A stretch of 64,000 nt of DNA from Polyangiaceae bacterium. Its GTDB lineage: Bacteria; Myxococcota_A; Polyangia; Polyangiales; Polyangiaceae. The position numbers and the translations under genes were made by a program. Under the pieces are notes generated by a model, which worked only from the letters and a program-made list of their open reading frames with translations, did no database searches and was not told the origin of the DNA. Where the stretch lies: the NCBI GenBank assembly GCA_019637265.1, contig JAHBVY010000001.1, forward strand, positions 1,426,001 through 1,490,000, given 5' to 3'. How positions within the stretch are numbered: position 1 is the first letter of the stretch; every line of letters starts with the position of its first letter. Below are positions 20,729 through 32,315 of this stretch, one piece after another.

Positions 20729-21622
20729 TCAGCGCCGCAGCACCCGGAGCGGCGCCCCGTCCACCGTGAGCGGCCCCTCGAGCGCCGCCGTCTTCAGCAG
20801 CGCGAACCCCACGGGGCCCAGCGCCGCGCTGACCCGCGCCGAGCGCAGCTCACCCACCACCTGCTCACCGGCGCGCACCTCGGCCCCCGCAGCGGGCGGC
20901 TCCGCGGCGTCGATCGCCACCGGGAACAAAGCGCGCCGCACCTTGCCGCGTAGGTCCTGCATGCAGACCACCTCCTGACCCAGGTAGCAGCCCTTCTGCC
21001 AATCGATGGGTTGGGCGCCTAGCTGACGATGCGCGAGGCTCGCCTCGTGAGGGTTGCTCTCGGGGCCATAGTCAGCCCCCCACTCGGGGAGCCAACGCTC
21101 CACCCGCAGCTCGGCGTAGCGCTCAGGGGAGAGCTCACTCGTCAGGGACAGCGACAACTCGGCGCCGCGCGGCACAGCGGCCAGCGCCCCGCCAAACCCC
21201 AAAAAATCCAGCTCCCCGAAGGCGCGCGCCGACAGGCCCGCCACGGCCCCCGCTGCTCCCGGGCCGATCAGCATCACCAGCTCCACCTCGGGGCACGGCT
21301 CCTGCTCGGCGTCTTCCATGATCAAGAAATGATCGAGGCTCGCGAGTAGATCGGCTGACTGACCAGCGGGCGTGAAGAGCAGGAGCTCCTCCTCCCCCGC
21401 GAGCGTCCACACCTCCGCCTGGATCTTCCCTGGCTTGTTCAAGGACAGGCCCCACCCCGCGATGCCCGGCCGGAGCGACAGCACGTCGTGCGTGAGCACC
21501 CCGTGCAGCCAGCTCTGCCGATCGGGCCCGGTCACCCGGATCGCCTCGAGCTCCGGGCGCCGAACCCAGGCGAAATCCCCCTCGATCCCCGAAAGCACTT
21601 GCCCAGGCCAGCTACTCGACAT
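20729..21622 (-). CDS. ygfZ: YgfZ-type folate-binding protein (iron-sulfur cluster repair)
   Basis: YgfZ binds tetrahydrofolate and supports maturation or repair of some Fe-S enzymes, including radical-SAM methylthiotransferases. The 297-residue product has the GcvT-like fold and the signature KGCYLGQEVV with K210 and C212, the cysteine essential in the family. I start at ATG 21622 (MSSSWPGQVLSGIEGDF), 14 codons inside the longest frame, since those codons are Arg-rich and not conserved. It stands alone. Confidence 0.9.
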   Translation of the reverse strand: MSSSWPGQVLSGIEGDFAWVRRPELEAIRVTGPDRQSWLHGVLTHDVLSLRPGIAGWGLSLNKPGKIQAEVWTLAGEEELLLFTPAGQSADLLASLDHFLIMEDAEQEPCPEVELVMLIGPGAAGAVAGLSARAFGELDFLGFGGALAAVPRGAELSLSLTSELSPERYAELRVERWLPEWGADYGPESNPHEASLAHRQLGAQPIDWQKGCYLGQEVVCMQDLRGKVRRALFPVAIDAAEPPAAGAEVRAGEQVVGELRSARVSAALGPVGFALLKTAALEGPLTVDGAPLRVLRR

Positions 21623-21830
21623 CCCCTCTCGTCTAGTGCCACGGGGGGCCGCCCGCAACCGCACGACGTTGGAGGAGGGTGAGGCGCGGGCCGAGGCGCG
21701 CCGCCGCAGCTAGACAAGTCAGCTGTCGATCGTCACCCTCGCTGGCGTCATCCGAGGAGGATCGAGGGAGGCCGATTCAGCTCGGCGGATCGGTCGAGCG
21801 CCCTGGCTCGCCGGTGCTGCCCCACGCGGC

Positions 21831-22773: not shown

Positions 22774-24213
22774 ATGTCCGACTCCCCCAAAGTGCCCCAG
22801 AGCCCGACAGTCCTTGGTTCGCCCGACGCCAGCGGCGCCGAGCTGCGCATCGCGGACGCCGCAGGCGCGGGATCCGCCAGCGAAGCCAAGGGCGCGTCCG
22901 ATGGCCACGCACCCACCTCGACGGGCAGCGTGCTCATCAGCGCGCTCGCGGCGCACGTGGGCCGCGTGGTTCGCCTGGAGGGCTGGCTCAAGAACATGCG
23001 CTCGAGCAAGAAGCTCCACTTCCTCGAGCTGCGTGACGGCACCGGCGTCGTCCAGGCGATCGTCTCGCTGGGAGACGTGGGGGAGGCGCTGTTCGAGCGC
23101 GCGGGGCAGCTGGGTCAGGAGACCAGCCTCCGCGTGGTGGGCGAGGTGCGCGCGCACCCGAAGCAGCCCGGCGTGTTCGAGATCGGGGTGAGCGCGCTCG
23201 AGGTGATCGCGGAGGCGCACGACTACCCCATCAGCCCCAAGGCGCACGGCACCGACTTCCTGATGGACCACCGCCACCTGTGGCTGCGCTCGAGCCGCCA
23301 GCACGCCATCTTGCGGGTGCGCCACGCCATCATCCAGGCGGTGCGGCGCTTCTTCGATGAGCGCGACTTCACCTTGGTGGACGCGCCGGTGTTCACGCCC
23401 AACGCCTGCGAGGGGACGAGCACGCTGTTCGAGACGGACTATCATGGTCAGCCTGCCTACCTGACTCAGAGCGGGCAGCTGTACATGGAGGCGGCCGCCG
23501 CGGCGTTTGGTAAGGCGTACTGCTTTGGTCCGACTTTCCGCGCGGAGAAGAGCAAGACGCGGCGTCACCTGGCGGAGTTCTGGATGGTGGAGCCCGAGGT
23601 GGCGTTCATGGACCTGGACGGCGACATGCAGCTGGCGGAGGACTTCCTGTGCTTCATCGTCGATCACGTCTTGAAGACGCGGCGCCCGGAGCTCGAGAGC
23701 CTGGAGCGCGACCTCACGAGGCTCGAGCGCGTGAAGGCGCCGTTCCCGCGCATCAGCTACCGCGAGGCCATCACGCTGCTTCAGCAGGCAGGAAAAGAGG
23801 TCACGTTCGGTGACGACTTCGGCGCCGAGGACGAGACGATCATCAGCGAACAGTTCGATCGGCCGGTGATCGTCCAGCGCTACCCGTCGGCGATCAAGGC
23901 CTTCTACATGAAGCAAGATCCGGAGGACCCAGCGCTCTCGCTGTGCATGGACGTGCTCGCGCCGGAGGGCTACGGCGAGATCATCGGCGGCGGCCAGCGC
24001 GAGGACAGCCTCGAGCTGCTCGAACAGCGGATCGCCGAGCACCAGCTCCCGAAGGAGGCCTTCGAGTGGTACCTCGATCTGCGCCGCTACGGCAGCTTCC
24101 CCCACGCCGGCTTCGGCCTTGGCATCGAGCGCACCGTGGCTTGGCTGTGCGGCCTGCCCCACGTGCGGGAAACAATCCCCTTCCCCCGCATGTTGAGCCG
24201 CCTGTCACCTTGA
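22774..24213 (+). CDS. asnS: Asparaginyl-tRNA synthetase
   Basis: AsnRS attaches asparagine to tRNA-Asn. The 479-residue product has the N-terminal OB-fold anticodon-binding domain ([20 protein letters not shown]) and class II motifs: motif 2 [21 protein letters not shown] and motif 3 [31 protein letters not shown] is the AsnRS/AspRS loop, and the core length fits AsnRS. About 50 residues precede the OB-fold, rich in Ala, Ser and Gly; these may be a real extension or a misplaced start. The gene diverges from the C2/PDZ lipoprotein. Confidence 0.93.
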
Positions 24214-24485: not shown

Positions 24486-24799
24486 CCGGACCCAAGCCCT
24501 GAAGAGATGAAACGTCGAAGCCCGGATGAGCCAGCGGTAGTCAGCCTCATGTCGGCATCGACAGCTCCAAGCGCGCTGCTGATCCGAAAACAACGGCTGC
24601 TCCAAGCGAGGTGAGGTGCGCGCGGGCGCCACAGGCTGGCATGACATGGGTGTCGTGATGGCATCCTCCGCTCGTTCGCGTAGGCTTGTGAATGAAGCGC
24701 TCCGCACCCAGGTCCTACATGAGCCGCGGGCAACACCCGCCCACCTCATGAGCAGGGGGCCCACGTCGCCACGTCACGCCGCCACTCAGGAGACCTCAA

Positions 24800-25648
24800 A
24801 TGAGGATGTTCGCCTTCATCGGCAATCGACAAGACGTCGGCTCCAGGATCCTGGAGCTGACGCCGTCCGTGCTCACGGTGGAGGCGCCCGCGGGTGAGTC
24901 GCTCGGTTGGGGCGTTGGCTTCTACCAAACGGGGGAGGTGCTCTTGCGGCGGCGCCCGCTGGACGATCGCGCGGTCATCGATCTGGTGGAGGTGACGCGC
25001 GGCGTGCGGTCAGATCTCCTGATTGGTCACGTGCGGCGGCCGACCATCGGGGATCTCCGCACGGAAAACACGCACCCCTTCCGCTACCGCCAGTGGCTGA
25101 TGGCGCAGACCGGCACCATCCCCCACTTCGACCGCCTGCGCGGGCGCATGCTGGAATCTCAGCCGGAGTTCCTACGACGAAACGTCCGCGGGGACACCGA
25201 CACCGAGTGCTTCTTCTACCTGGTGCTCTCGTTCCTCCACGACGCGGGGCACCTCGCGAGCGACCACGTGGAGCCGACGCACGTGCGGCAGGCGCTCCGC
25301 TCCGCCATGTCCCTCGTGGACCGGTTGACCCAGGAGGTGGGCGCACCAGAGGCCCGCGGGGACATCCTGCTCACCGAGGGGGAGCACCTGTTCGCCGTGC
25401 ATCGGGGCGGGGACATGGGGCTCCGCCGCATCGAGGGGCGGGCGGAGCTGACTCAGCTGCTCGGCGACACGGAGCCGGGAGCCGGGAGCCCCGCCGCGAG
25501 CTCTGCGAGCGTCGCAGGCCTGGATCAGGCGCGTTTCTACGTGCTGAGCTCGGGAGCGGCGCCGCTCGGCTCACGCTGGGAGCGCGTCCCCGAGGACACG
25601 CTGCTCACCCTGTCACGCACCGAAGATCCGGAGCTCGAGCCGCTGTAG
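24800..25648 (+). CDS. Class II glutamine amidotransferase-like protein lacking the cysteine nucleophile
   Basis: The 282-residue product has the Ntn fold of the YafJ/EgtC group: LGWGVGFY (35-42), GHVRRPTIGDLRTENTHPF (76-94) and GDTDTE (131-136). These match the GWG.FY, HxRxxTxG...NTHPF and G(E/D)TDSE motifs of active members. Active enzymes begin Met-Cys-Arg, and that Cys, exposed as residue 1, is the nucleophile. Here the protein begins MRMFAFIG with no Cys, and the HNG motif is AQTGT (102-106). Amidase activity is therefore unlikely. Either the start is misread or this is a catalytically dead, perhaps regulatory, member. No synthase partner lies nearby. The stop falls in a tandem repeat. 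Confidence 0.75.
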   Translation: MRMFAFIGNRQDVGSRILELTPSVLTVEAPAGESLGWGVGFYQTGEVLLRRRPLDDRAVIDLVEVTRGVRSDLLIGHVRRPTIGDLRTENTHPFRYRQWLMAQTGTIPHFDRLRGRMLESQPEFLRRNVRGDTDTECFFYLVLSFLHDAGHLASDHVEPTHVRQALRSAMSLVDRLTQEVGAPEARGDILLTEGEHLFAVHRGGDMGLRRIEGRAELTQLLGDTEPGAGSPAASSASVAGLDQARFYVLSSGAAPLGSRWERVPEDTLLTLSRTEDPELEPL

Positions 25649-25750
25649 GCCTCGGAGCCGCTGTAGGCCTGGGAGCCGTACGCGCCGCAGAACCGCTGTG
25701 AGTACGGTGGAACCACTGTGAGCGCGGTGGAACCGCTGTAAGCTCGGCGG
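25637..25750 (+). repeat. Two tandem arrays at the 3-prime end of the amidotransferase gene
   Basis: GAGCCGCTGTAGGCCTCG occurs as two 18-base units plus a stub (25637-25678), with the gene's TAG stop inside the first unit. Three 20-base units follow at 25691, 25711 and 25731, each reading roughly AACCGCTGTGAGTACGGTGG. Confidence 0.75.
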
Positions 25751-25751
25751 A

Positions 25752-26453
25752 GTGCGCTCGCCTCACCTGTTTCAGAGCCGTCTCGAGGGTGTCCCTCGGC
25801 GCCGCCGCTCGCGCCCCCTCCGGGAGCCGCGCGCGCGCTCGCTGGCTCACACCCGGCGTGCCATCGCCATGAGCGCCGTGTGGCTGACGGCGAGCCTCGG
25901 CCTCGCCTGCGCCCAGCGCGCGGCGCCCCCCGATGCGCCCGACACCGCGCGATCGAGCGACGAGGTCGACCCAGCCTGGGTGCCCCACGGCGTGGTCAAG
26001 CTCCCACCCCCGAGGCTGGACGCCGACACGCAGGAGGGCGTGGTGACCCTGATCGCGCCCCCGAGCCTGGAGCAGGCGCGCAGCACCGTGCGGCGGTTCT
26101 TCCGCGCCGTGGTGAACGAGTCGGAGCAAGGCATCCTCGAGGAGATGGCCCCCTCCCGATCCCACGAGACGTTCTCCCGCTGGCGGCGGCGCTTCGCGAC
26201 CCTGGACTACGACGCGCTCCAGGGCGTGACCCTGTTTCAAGACAGTGACCTGACCATCACCCGGGGCGGCGAGCTCAGCGCTCAAGGCTCCGCGCTGGGG
26301 CTGTCCCCGGACTTCGTCGTGATCGTGGTGAAGCCGCGCGTGACGAAGGTCGGCACGTCGAGGCTGTTCGGTGACGAGCTCGTGTTCTACCTTCAGAGCG
26401 ACACCGAGCGCTACCGCATCACCAACATCCAAGAGGACTTCCCCAACCCATGA
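25752..26453 (+). CDS. Predicted lipoprotein, unknown function
   Basis: The 233-residue product starts at GTG 25752, with an Arg-rich n-region and the membrane segment and lipobox MSAVWLTASLGLACAQ. Without the Arg-rich n-region the alternative ATG 25869 would leave a signal with no positive charge, so I keep the longer form. The mature part contains a possible NTF2-like or helical-sheet domain (ARSTVRRFFRAVVNESEQG). It overlaps the zinc-ribbon membrane gene by ATGA and is co-transcribed with it. Its fold resembles, at sequence-pattern level, the lipoprotein at 27321 across the convergent junction. Confidence 0.7.
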   Translation: MRSPHLFQSRLEGVPRRRRSRPLREPRARSLAHTRRAIAMSAVWLTASLGLACAQRAAPPDAPDTARSSDEVDPAWVPHGVVKLPPPRLDADTQEGVVTLIAPPSLEQARSTVRRFFRAVVNESEQGILEEMAPSRSHETFSRWRRRFATLDYDALQGVTLFQDSDLTITRGGELSAQGSALGLSPDFVVIVVKPRVTKVGTSRLFGDELVFYLQSDTERYRITNIQEDFPNP

Positions 26454-27913: not shown

Positions 27914-30040
27914 CTACTTACTTGGGCCCCGCGCGCAACCGCTTCCGTCGCCTTGGAGCCACTCCAAGAGCCGCGGCCAGCCTTCACGCGGTGATGGCGC
28001 GCCGCCCGACTGACGAGATGACGAAGCGCTCCGCTCCACGTGGGTGAGCTGCGCCAAAATGGCAGACGAATCGAGCCGCGGCTCGCTGTCCGCCGCGCGG
28101 ACCACGCGCGCCGCGAGCGCGCCGTGCAAGAGCTCGAGCCCAGCCGCCGCGAGCAGGCGTCCGACGTCCTCGGTCACGACGTCCGCCGCGATCACCCACA
28201 CCTCATCGGCGTCCCCCGCCTCGATCAGCTGGGTGGCGACGAACAAGGCCTCGAGCGGCGCCGCCGCCCCCGCCCCCACGCTGAAGCAAGGACCGCCGAG
28301 CCCAAACAGGATGGAGACCATGCCCGGCGCGAGGTTGGGGCTCGTCGCCGGGAAGCCGCGCGGCGGCGCGCGGCCATGACCACGCCGCATCAGCTCCGCG
28401 TGGTAGCCCTGGTTGTGGCTCAGCGTGGCGGCGAGGGTGCCCACCACCACGCCGATTCGTTTCCTCACAGAAACACCCAGCGGCTCGCCCTCGAAGGCTC
28501 GCAGCTCCTCCGCCGAGAGCAGGCTCAAGGCGGCGCTGGCGCACAGCGCGCTCAGCGCGTCGAGGCGGCGCGCGGTGAGCGGACCTGCGCGCCCCAGCCG
28601 CGCGAGCCGCTCCGTCTCTGGCTCGCGCACCGGGGAGCCCACCTGAGCGAGCCGCGCGCCATATCGTTCCGTCGTGGAAATATTGATGGGGGACCGCGCC
28701 GCGGTCAGCGCCACGTTGCAGCCGCCGAACGCCATCGCCAACTTGAGCACCCGCGAAGCGCCGCGCGGGTGCGCCGGGCGCGGCGCGCTCAGCGCCAGCT
28801 CATGGGGAGGGCTCGGGAGCGCCGGCGCGCCGTGCTCCAGGCACTCGAAGGCGGCGAGCAGCTCGAGCGCCGAGCCGGCGCCCAGGGTGTGCCCCACCCG
28901 CGCCTTGAACGCGTGCACCGGCGCGCGCGCGCTGAGCTGAGCGATCGCCAGCGCCTCCTCGCGATCGTTGGCGAGCGTGGCGGTGCCGTGGGCGCTGATG
29001 AGCCAGGCTTCATCCAGGCCAGCCTGTGCTGCGGCCAAGGCGCTCGATTCGTCAGATGTATTTACTATTCGAGGGCCGCGCGCCTCCTCGGGAGCGGCGG
29101 CGCCAGCCTCCGCGAGGGCGCGCTGCGCGGCCGCGACGAGGCCGGGCGCACCGGGCGCGGGCGCCGTGGGGTGCGCCGCGTCCGAGCTCGCCGCGAAGCC
29201 GAGCAGGTACCGCGCAGAGCGCTCCCTGCGATCGGCTGCCCCCTCTGCATCGGGTGCCGCCGCGGAGTCTTGCGCAGCCGTCTCGTGAGACTCACTGACG
29301 GATAGTGCGGCTGCCTCCGCTGCATCGGGCGCTTTGGAGCCCTGCACGGCTGTATCGTAAGCCTTGCTGATGGATGGCTCGGCGCGGGTGAGCGCGAGCA
29401 GCGCCGCGCCCTCACCCAGGGCGAGCCCGTCGCGCGCCAGGGAGAACGGGCGCGGCTCGCTCGCCGTGACGACGCCGAGCGACTCGAACCCCGCGGCGAC
29501 CAGGGGCGCGATCACGTCGTAGCCCCCGGCGATCACCAGATCGGCGGCGCCGCTCTGGAGCACGCGCAGCGCGACCCCGAGCGCCATCGCGCTGCTGGCG
29601 CAGGCCGCGTACACCTGCACCAGGGGCGCGTTCGGGAGGATCCCGGCGAGCCCCTGGAGCGGACCGAAGTAGCTGGCCTGCGCCGCGAGCGCTGGTGAAA
29701 CGTCAGCTCCATTGGCTAAAGCCTCGAACGCCGCCTCCTGGCTCACCATGCCGCCCGACGAGGTGCCGAGCACCACGCACAGCCGCCGCGCGCGCCACCC
29801 TGGAGCGCGCTGATCCAGCGCCGCCGTCAGCTCCTCCGCCGCCAGGGCCAGCAGCGCGCGCGCCGGATCCACGGCCCCCTCCCGGGTCAGCTCCACGCGC
29901 GCCGCGCGCGGCGCGCCGAGCCCGAGCGCCGCGAGCGCTCGATCGAAGCCCACGGCGCTGGGGCCACTCGGCAGGACCGCGGCGCGCCCGCGCCCCAAGG
30001 CGCTCACCGCGGCGCTCGCCACCACCCGCGCCGCGCTCAA
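27914..30040 (-). CDS. Ketosynthase fused to a degenerate second ketosynthase half
   Basis: Residues about 1-450 form a full beta-ketoacyl-ACP synthase with the complete site C147 (YAACASSA), H351 (HGTATLAND), K379 and H384 (FKARVGHTLGAG). From about 460 to 650 a second ketosynthase N-terminal half follows (GPCFSVGAGAAAPLEAL), where the nucleophile position is A590, as in a chain-length factor. A low-complexity in-frame insert occupies about 221-270 (SISKAYDTAVQGSKAPD..., then a similar copy). The start is TTG 30040 (LSAARVVASAAVSALG) with GAGGGG upstream; the ATG overlapping the previous stop leads to a stop after 23 codons in another frame. The gene follows the other ketosynthase and ACP in one operon. 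Confidence 0.8.
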   Translation of the reverse strand: MSAARVVASAAVSALGRGRAAVLPSGPSAVGFDRALAALGLGAPRAARVELTREGAVDPARALLALAAEELTAALDQRAPGWRARRLCVVLGTSSGGMVSQEAAFEALANGADVSPALAAQASYFGPLQGLAGILPNAPLVQVYAACASSAMALGVALRVLQSGAADLVIAGGYDVIAPLVAAGFESLGVVTASEPRPFSLARDGLALGEGAALLALTRAEPSISKAYDTAVQGSKAPDAAEAAALSVSESHETAAQDSAAAPDAEGAADRRERSARYLLGFAASSDAAHPTAPAPGAPGLVAAAQRALAEAGAAAPEEARGPRIVNTSDESSALAAAQAGLDEAWLISAHGTATLANDREEALAIAQLSARAPVHAFKARVGHTLGAGSALELLAAFECLEHGAPALPSPPHELALSAPRPAHPRGASRVLKLAMAFGGCNVALTAARSPINISTTERYGARLAQVGSPVREPETERLARLGRAGPLTARRLDALSALCASAALSLLSAEELRAFEGEPLGVSVRKRIGVVVGTLAATLSHNQGYHAELMRRGHGRAPPRGFPATSPNLAPGMVSILFGLGGPCFSVGAGAAAPLEALFVATQLIEAGDADEVWVIAADVVTEDVGRLLAAAGLELLHGALAARVVRAADSEPRLDSSAILAQLTHVERSASSSRQSGGAPSPREGWPRLLEWLQGDGSGCARGPSK

Positions 30041-30104
30041 CGGGGCCCCTCGGGTGCTCCGGCGCCCCCGAAGGCGCTCACCGCCGCGCGGTGCCTGGAG
30101 GCGC

Positions 30105-32315
30105 TCATCCTTCGGCTCCTTCGACGCGCGCGAGCTGGGTGTACGAGAGGCGCCCTTCGCGCACATCGACCACCAACGCCTGACTGAGCTCCCCGGTGAG
30201 CAGCCGCTCAGCAGCGCGCGCGAGCGCCGCGTTGCCCAAGCCCTCCACTGAGCACAGCCGGGGGCGCTCGAGCTCGCCCCAGCCGTCGTCATCCCAAGCC
30301 AGGCTGCCATCGTCCGACGCGAGCAGCGCGCGGGCCACGCCGCTCGGCGCGCGAGGCAGCGTGAGCCCATCACCGAACGCCACCACCTGGATCGGCTGGG
30401 GCGCGCGACACCACAGCTGCCCCGCCGCCGCCCACTCGGTCGGCGCGGCGTCCCAGCAGGCGGCGGCCACCCGCAGCGCGAGCGGATCGAGCGGCTCGGC
30501 GGCGCAGGAGAGCGCGCGCCGCGCGACGCCCGCGGCGACCCACTCGATGGCCTGGTGCGCCGCCGCGTGCGCCGAGGCGGCGCCGGCGCTCACCGCGGCG
30601 ACCGGCCCACGGATCGCGCTGTAGAGCGCCGCGTTCCCCGACGCCGCGCTCGGGAGCAGGTTGGGGAAATCCGCGGGGGCCGGGCGCGCCACCCGAGCGC
30701 GCGCGAGGAAGCGCGCGGCTGGCTCGATGAGGCCGAAGGCCGTCCCATGAGCCAGCGCCGTCTCGTCATCGCCGCCCTCCGGGAGCAGCTGACTCGTGAG
30801 CCAGGCGATCCAAGTAGACAGTGGATCGAACCGCCTCGAGCGCGCGGCGTCGAGCAGCGCCGCGCGCTCGGGGAGCGCGCCGGGCGCATGAGCGCCGAGG
30901 GGCCCCTCGCCAGGGCGCGTCAGCACGCTCCGCGCCAAGTACACCGGCACCGCCGGCCTCCGAGGAGCGCCCGTGCGAGCCAAACGAGCCGGGGCGGAGC
31001 GCGCGAAGCACAGCACCGCGCCCATGCCCCCGAATCCAAAGGAGTTGCTGAGCGCCACCTCACAGGGTGCTGTCTCCGCCTGGCTACCGATCAGCGCGCT
31101 CCAAGGCTCGAGGTCCGCGGCCACGTTGGGCGGCAACACGCCGGCCTCCAGCGCCTGCACCGTGATGACCGCCTCCACCGCGCCGGAGCCACCGAGTAGG
31201 TGGCCCAGCTGACCTTTACTGGAAGCGACCCGCGGCGCGCGCTGCGGAGCCCCCGCCGGGGCACGCGGCTGCTCCGCGCCTCGCAGTTCCTCTGAAGCGC
31301 CCTGCCCATCCGCTGAAGTGCCCTGCGACCCGAACACCGCTTCGAGCGCGACGCGCTCGGCGGCGTCGTTGTGCGGCGTCCCGGTGCCGTGCGCGTTCAC
31401 GTAACCCACCGCGTCCGGCGTGAAGCCCGCGTCGCTCAGCGCGCTCTGGATCAGCGCCGCCGCGCGCCGCCCTGCAGGATCCGGCTGCGTGACGTGGTGA
31501 GCCTCCGAGCCCACCGCGACGCCGCACAAGTAGCCGCGCACGCGCGCGCCGCGCCGCGCCGCGCTCTCGAGCGACTCGAGCACCAAGGCCCCTGCCCCCT
31601 CCCCCAAGCTGAGCCCCGCGCGACTGCGAGCGAAGGGCCTGCCGCCCTGCGGATCGAGCAACCCGAGGGCGCCGAAGCCAAGTGAGGTGGTCTGACAAAG
31701 CGCGTCGGCGCCGCCCACGAGCACCCGCGCCACCCGCCCGCTCCGGATCCACTCCGCGCCCACCGCCACCGCGAGCGCACCGCTCGAGCACGCCGAGCAC
31801 ACCGTGCGCGCCGGCCCCACGCCGAGCAGCCGCTGGCGCGCCCGCGTCACCACGCGGGAGATAGGGAACCCGAGCAGCGCCGTGAGCTCCTCGTCCGGCG
31901 TCTCCGGCGACACCAGGCCGAGCAGCGGCTCCAGCTCGGCGAGGCCCCCCGTGGTGGTCCCCCACACCAGACCGAGCTCACTATCCATCAGTTCATCTGA
32001 CGAATGCGCGCCCACTTCGGTGCCTCCCCCGGAGCCTGCCTCAGTGCCTGCTTCGGCTCCTGACGCCTCGCCCACCAAAAGCAGGTGCTCCTCGAGGCCG
32101 GCGTCGATCAGCGTCGCGACCAAGGCCGCGAGGCTGAGCGCCTCGGTGCGCGGCAGCCGAGCCAGCTCCGGCGGCAGCGCGCAGCGGGCGACGGGCGCCT
32201 GCCCCGCGCCCCTCGAGAGCGCGCTCTCCCCCTGCGCGAGGCGCGCGAACGTCTCCTGCGCCTGGCCCAGGGCGGTGATCACCCCGAGCCCCGTCACCGC
32301 TACCTCACGCGTCAT
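30105..32315 (-). CDS. Ketosynthase fused to a degenerate second ketosynthase half
   Basis: The 736-residue product begins MTREVAVTGLGVITALG, a classic FabF/KS start. Catalytic residues are C176 (CSACSSGA), H309 (AHGTGTPHND), K367 and H372 (SSKGQLGHLLGG). The first module spans about 1-440. The second, about 450-730, is a partial KS (GPVAAVSAGAASAHA) in which the nucleophile position is Ala579 rather than Cys. Flexible inserts rich in Gly, Ala, Glu and Ser occur near 85-105 and 330-365. It overlaps the ACP gene by ATGA. It probably condenses acyl units on that ACP; the product is unknown, and no ketoreductase, dehydratase or acyltransferase is adjacent. Confidence 0.85.
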   Translation of the reverse strand: MTREVAVTGLGVITALGQAQETFARLAQGESALSRGAGQAPVARCALPPELARLPRTEALSLAALVATLIDAGLEEHLLLVGEASGAEAGTEAGSGGGTEVGAHSSDELMDSELGLVWGTTTGGLAELEPLLGLVSPETPDEELTALLGFPISRVVTRARQRLLGVGPARTVCSACSSGALAVAVGAEWIRSGRVARVLVGGADALCQTTSLGFGALGLLDPQGGRPFARSRAGLSLGEGAGALVLESLESAARRGARVRGYLCGVAVGSEAHHVTQPDPAGRRAAALIQSALSDAGFTPDAVGYVNAHGTGTPHNDAAERVALEAVFGSQGTSADGQGASEELRGAEQPRAPAGAPQRAPRVASSKGQLGHLLGGSGAVEAVITVQALEAGVLPPNVAADLEPWSALIGSQAETAPCEVALSNSFGFGGMGAVLCFARSAPARLARTGAPRRPAVPVYLARSVLTRPGEGPLGAHAPGALPERAALLDAARSRRFDPLSTWIAWLTSQLLPEGGDDETALAHGTAFGLIEPAARFLARARVARPAPADFPNLLPSAASGNAALYSAIRGPVAAVSAGAASAHAAAHQAIEWVAAGVARRALSCAAEPLDPLALRVAAACWDAAPTEWAAAGQLWCRAPQPIQVVAFGDGLTLPRAPSGVARALLASDDGSLAWDDDGWGELERPRLCSVEGLGNAALARAAERLLTGELSQALVVDVREGRLSYTQLARVEGAEG

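Follow-up and report, generated by a model that had tools for sequence, protein, structure and literature searches.

The window analysed here, a stretch of 64,000 nucleotides from a Polyangiaceae bacterium, carries on its forward strand an asparaginyl-tRNA synthetase (AsnS) gene (22774..24213), an open reading frame of 282 codons related to class-II glutamine amidotransferases (GATases) (24800..25648), and a lipoprotein gene (25752..26453). The middle gene, our query, is preceded by AGGAG, by eye a likely ribosome-binding site (24788..24792, 7 nt 5' of the ATG at 24800). Its product begins MRMFAFIG and further on contains the stretches GWGVGFY, HVRRPTIGDLRTENTHPF, WLMAQTGT and RGDTDTE, so that the motifs listed in an earlier note on this DNA, including the unusual start and AQTG in the place of AHNG, are all found in the ORF. 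Pfam assigns it to GATase_4 (E=3.5e-15) and GATase_6 (E=7.1e-8), both above the cut-offs. The NCBIfam EgtC model (TIGR03442) also matches (E=3.9e-15), with 55.9 bits against an equivalog cut-off of 218.65.

The two elements that characterise active members of the YafJ/EgtC group, the N-terminal Cys and the oxyanion Asn-Gly of the HNG motif, are both absent. At the site of the missing nucleophile (24800..24808) the query reads ATG AGG ATG where its relatives encode M-A-R-[LM], the Ala codon being lacking in the query and in one relative, L007. Q103-T104-G105 (25106..25114) stands in the place of His-Asn-Gly, also in a pairwise alignment with PDB chain 3mdn, and the oxyanion Asn is thus gone. 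The earlier note had proposed a search for an upstream or alternative start with Cys; the open frame reaches back only to 24752, and these 48 bases contain neither a start codon nor a codon for Cys. The sole Cys of the protein, residue 137, is not conserved, and another conserved Cys as nucleophile was rejected, as the Cys-richest column has 13 Cys among 60 clade rows. What the query does retain is all five residues of what we take, by analogy with GlmS and EgtC, to be the glutamine pocket: R79, T82 and H92 in the segment R79 to P93 (25034..25078), G105, and D134 in R130-G-D-T-D134-T-E136 (25187..25207). With neither an N-terminal nucleophile nor an oxyanion Asn, the protein should be incapable of hydrolysing glutamine by the mechanism of its family, and we infer that catalysis has been lost.

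A peptide-pattern scan of genome contigs, the one search here that reached beyond Myxococcota, yielded 62 relatives, 42-56% identical to the query in the best segment, nearly all in records labelled myxobacteria or deltaproteobacteria. One lies in a record labelled Planctomycetaceae (L029:1800-3449); there the amidotransferase ORF continues in frame into an unrelated protein, and the AsnS of the record is 69% identical to that of the window, which is probably the product of mis-binning together with a mis-join. This in-frame chimera and two members cut at contig ends (L040 and L045) were left out of the working alignment (A1, 60 members). Over the 63 rows made up of the query and its relatives, the nucleophile position is occupied by Ala in 58, Ser in one and Met in two (the query and L007, where the codon is missing), and is cut away by the contig end in two. 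Thr has taken the place of the oxyanion Asn in each of the 63, and the position of the preceding His is Gln in 36, His in 17 and another residue in the rest. Of the pocket residues, R79, H92 and D134 are kept in every row and G105 in 62, and position 82 is Thr (54) or Ser (9).

Alignment with close homologues, as the earlier note had advised, thus reveals a loss common to the clade, with Cys at position 2 in none of the 61 clade rows that have an intact N-terminus. Neither of the outcomes that the note had named as refuting its reading, Cys2 in all homologues of the clade or a true start upstream with a Cys, was seen. Shared as it is by the 62 relatives, the loss characterises the whole clade; the query has additionally lost an Ala codon. 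The note's idea of a single lost codon behind the start is half right: the query is one codon short relative to the clade, but the codon that the relatives have there is Ala and not Cys. Codon loss does not account for the missing nucleophile: the Cys has been replaced, mostly by Ala, in a lineage that spans the phylum, and the query and L007 have undergone the deletion as a further change inside it.

A profile made from A1 matched 86 of 140 genomes of the phylum Myxococcota at E<=1e-15, active paralogs included. We assembled a wide alignment of 169 rows, 60 from the clade and 109 from a sample of the phylum (some genomes were sampled in two sets, and the rows are therefore not all independent). 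HNG is present in 68 of its 68 Cys rows, and Asn occurs at that column in none of the 101 Cys-less rows, whose nucleophile position is, outside the clade, also occupied by Pro, Gly, Tyr or Val. In this count L174, with an MCR start, is a Cys row; the N-terminus of L083 is cut by the contig, and the start used for L168 is MSLSIAML. Nine further places were read by eye; five start MCR and have HNG, one has HNG with a cut N-terminus, and three start MSH, MAR and MER. We built a tree from 42 Cys-less and 50 Cys rows, a subset of those fetched, from which the three catalytic columns were removed and the active paralog of the query genome was left out. A single branch of it separates the Cys-less from the Cys rows, with a support of 99 in a quick search, 100/100 in a careful one and 100% of 200 bootstrap trees. 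The tree is unrooted and some of the far rows form long branches; the split along a single branch fits one old loss.

A wider profile (A3), run against 377 genomes of the phylum, matched 244 at E<=1e-8, again including active paralogs. Matches to A1 at E<=1e-40 were found in 83 of 97 closer relatives (for the family to which the window belongs, 54 of 60), their Cys-less status being read from the score, set against a strongest Cys-type match of 1.4e-43 seen with A1 in the 140 genomes. These distributions indicate that the Cys-less proteins form an old pseudoenzyme lineage that has been conserved as part of the core of the order, in genomes that have an active paralog and in genomes that have none. 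One genome (G383) has three matches to A1 (7e-106, 6e-76 and 3e-60, at G383:C40:37392-38216, G383:C334:3244-4062 and G383:C362:42134-42934).

The lineage bears the mark of strong purifying selection, as judged from codon comparisons. Pairwise dN/dS ranged from 0.041 to 0.168 in 15 pairs of members, hand-picked among close relatives and excluding the query, which has no relative near enough. Internal stops were found at none of the listed places matched by A1, in the 140 genomes or in the 97 relatives; one place matched by A3 (G194) contains a TAG. A shared and apparently single loss of catalytic residues, in genes that stay under selection, is as expected of a pseudoenzyme lineage. A dying gene, with a loss of recent date or a sequencing error confined to this genome, is next to impossible: the query is indeed one codon short against most relatives, but the 62 relatives share the loss, dN/dS is well below 1 in other members, and the frame of the query is intact.

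The AlphaFold2 model built from A1 (mean pLDDT 90.6, pTM 0.90) predicts a class-II GATase fold over the full length of the query. The best solved matches in Foldseek were 3mdn (8.8e-14), 1te5, and structures of EgtC and GlmS, among them the engineered variants 4zfl (EgtC C2A) and 3ooj (GlmS C1A); VIA gave Z 24.7 to 3mdn (rmsd 2.7, 207 aligned residues) and Z 21.0 to EgtC 4zfj (3.0, 212). The YafJ-like class-II GATases (1te5, 3mdn) share with the query the full-length fold and the HxR..T.G, NTHPF and TDTE motifs, whereas the query lacks Cys and HNG, has a conserved residue set of its own and sits on a separate branch of the tree. EgtC of ergothioneine biosynthesis (4zfj, 4zfk, 4zfl; Z 20.7-21.0) offers in its solved C2A variant a mimic of the natural Ala, although the query scores far under the EgtC cut-off. 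Since 4zfl is a Cys-to-Ala EgtC with substrate and 3ooj a GlmS C1A with glutamate, a class-II GATase site devoid of its Cys can still hold a ligand.

A class-II GATase fold that has lost its Cys in nature is found in beta-lactam synthetase, where it is fused to a synthetase domain; the N-terminal domain of this enzyme (1jgt, 1mc1) is among the fold matches but more distant (Z 11-12), and the query stands alone. The herpesvirus vGAT pseudo-amidotransferases are amidotransferase-like proteins that act through partners and not through any catalysis of their own, but they are viral and belong to a different amidotransferase class (class I). A literature search, at the level of search results, returned nothing on a stand-alone Cys-less lineage. 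Cys-less class-II GATase folds are already known in larger enzymes; the lineage described here is a stand-alone pseudoenzyme family in this known fold.

We then compared conservation in the clade (67 rows), in Cys proteins (67 rows) and in far Cys-less members (29 rows). The clade conserves, unlike the active proteins, among others N9, Q43, E46, L48, R51, R52, P53, R87-T88-E89, R95, R97, P122, F124, R130, S144, H147 and D148. In the far Cys-less rows L48, P53, R95, P122, G131 and E136 remain at 93-100%, while the pocket retains Arg in 66%, His in less than 50% (mostly Gln) and Asp in 45%. The full five-residue pocket, with Ser allowed for Thr, is present in 72 of the 101 Cys-less rows; the 29 others include L073, L074, L075, L076 and L082, all from the window's own family, and L007 (Gly to Ser). 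The alignments thus indicate that the near clade keeps the glutamine pocket and that elsewhere the pocket decays while a lineage-specific surface, with the elements PFR.R, P.F and RG, stays.

Immediately downstream, the lipoprotein gene has its likely start at ATG 25869 and the lipobox Cys codon at 25908-25910, and encodes an NTF2-like C-terminal domain. A lipoprotein gene lies on the same strand directly 3' of the amidotransferase gene in 58 of the 62 relatives; the four others are L024, L032, L026 (with 319 bases of contig left) and the chimera L029. At 24 of the 58 loci none of six other neighbours from the window was found, some of these contigs being short on one side, which suggests that the GATase-lipoprotein pair is more durable than the remaining neighbourhood. 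The lipobox scan placed the Cys codon 35-155 bases beyond the GATase stop in 44 loci, and the lipoprotein gene would therefore usually start near or inside the GATase end; the motif was missed in 14 of 58 loci, probably through limits of the search or of the regular expression, and a lipobox-like Cys is visible by eye in many. The gap is wider in the window (stop at 25648, ATG at 25869). Among 20 farther loci two also have the lipoprotein, L182 and, weakly, L178. The model of the lipoprotein (pLDDT 87.4) has an NTF2/cystatin-like C-terminal domain; Foldseek returned nothing under 0.001 for it, and in VIA NTF2/cystatin-like chains dominate (Z 10.5-11.6 over ~110 residues). At 25637-25751, where the amidotransferase gene ends and the gap to the lipoprotein gene opens, the window has two short degenerate tandem arrays with periods of 18 and 20, whose units resemble GAGCCGCTGTAGGCCTCG and GAACCGCTGTGAGCACGGTG.

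Our explanation is that the gene very probably belongs to a selected, non-catalytic pseudo-amidotransferase lineage of Myxococcota. The earlier note had taken the protein for a probably dead enzyme that is retained in some other role, an opinion that every comparison run here supports. The most likely role is that of a ligand-binding or regulatory protein. According to this scheme the class-II GATase fold would have been kept while the Cys nucleophile and the oxyanion Asn were replaced, apparently once, after which the gene remained under selection. The protein, presumably cytoplasmic, may hold glutamine, glutamate or a gamma-glutamyl compound akin to them but not turn it over, and the bound state could be passed to a partner through the lineage-specific surface (GEVLLRRRP, RTENTHPFRYR, PEF..RNVRG and SFLHD). 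As the pocket residues are kept in the query and most of the near clade, glutamine-like binding without turnover is the likeliest use of the site. The absence of the full pocket from 29 of 101 rows, including genomes of the window's own family, argues that glutamine binding is not the function of the whole lineage, and a glutamine-like ligand is therefore a tentative guess; an unrelated ligand, or a role that is structural alone, takes up the remaining weight. One may speculate further, and here the chances are low, that in Polyangiales a cytoplasmic sensor of a glutamine-like metabolite is wired to the envelope lipoprotein encoded beside it, so that the cell surface would be coupled to nitrogen state.

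The decay of the pocket in the far rows, where L48, P53, R95, P122, G131 and E136 persist, could also be read as favouring a scaffold, itself also non-catalytic, in which the Arg-rich lineage-specific surface binds a protein, a nucleic acid or an anionic partner and the old pocket lies idle. We consider this quite possible, if somewhat short of an even chance; against it stands the invariance of R79, H92 and D134 in the near clade, which are as strict as any surface residue. It is, on the other hand, very improbable that the protein is still an enzyme using another nucleophile, be it T104 or, in the manner of other Ntn hydrolases, a Ser or Thr at the N-terminus. Some far members do start MS or MT and T104 is invariant in the clade, but the clade has Ala or no residue at the N-terminal position, other members have Pro, Gly, Tyr or Val there, and T104 occupies the position of the former oxyanion Asn.

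Pseudoenzymes often pair with active kin, and the window's genome does encode one canonical YafJ-like paralog (MCRLFGF...AHNG, G000:C1:1025536-1026408), 31% identical to the query, of which the query could be a regulatory subunit. This active paralog was searched against 17 other genomes, selected because each matches the wide profile at one place (10 of these matches being Cys-less by sequence and 7 by score). It overlapped the same single match in 13 genomes, found nothing in three (G064, G069 and G109), and in G137 matched a different place, in a 997-aa frame. Genomes with a single match and no separate paralog suggest that the lineage needs no active stand-alone paralog; an obligate partnership is weakened by this search, and we hold the subunit explanation to be unlikely.

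The preferred reading, a non-catalytic lineage with a probable ligand-binding or regulatory role, has a practical side. Automatic annotation would presumably label such proteins class-II glutamine amidotransferases, as the query passes the Pfam cut-offs, and their sequences argue against this activity. The near members with an intact pocket and the far members with a decayed one form a natural series on what becomes of an amidotransferase fold without catalysis, and the adjoining lipoprotein is the first candidate partner.

The rest of the neighbourhood is more variable. AsnS was rejected as a functional partner: tblastn at 1e-6 recovered it at only 15 of 62 loci, downstream instead of upstream in L051, which makes it a neighbour in some relatives and not a rule. 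Across the sampled lineages compared, no single gene neighbour is common to all. In Labilithrix-like loci, the C2/PDZ, YgfZ-like and ketoacyl-synthase neighbours were not found beside the gene. In the window, a YgfZ/CAF17-like folate-binding protein (20729-21664, reverse strand; GCV_T and CAF17 C-terminal matches) is syntenic in part of the relatives, and two adjacent ORFs with partial ketoacyl-synthase matches (27914-32315, reverse strand) have, one or both, tblastn relatives in many of the 62 loci. Farther afield, where only a few calls of a codon-bias gene caller were used as it performs poorly on contigs of moderate GC, the neighbours are CutA, a patatin and a tyrosine recombinase in L180 (order-level), an alpha/beta hydrolase in L184, such a hydrolase together with a HEAT-repeat protein in L187, and PEGA proteins in L190 and L192. 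The CutA1 gene of L180 (L180:1271-1636, reverse strand) lies directly 3' of the Cys-less member, and an ORF of the same cluster occurs near the gene in five further loci.
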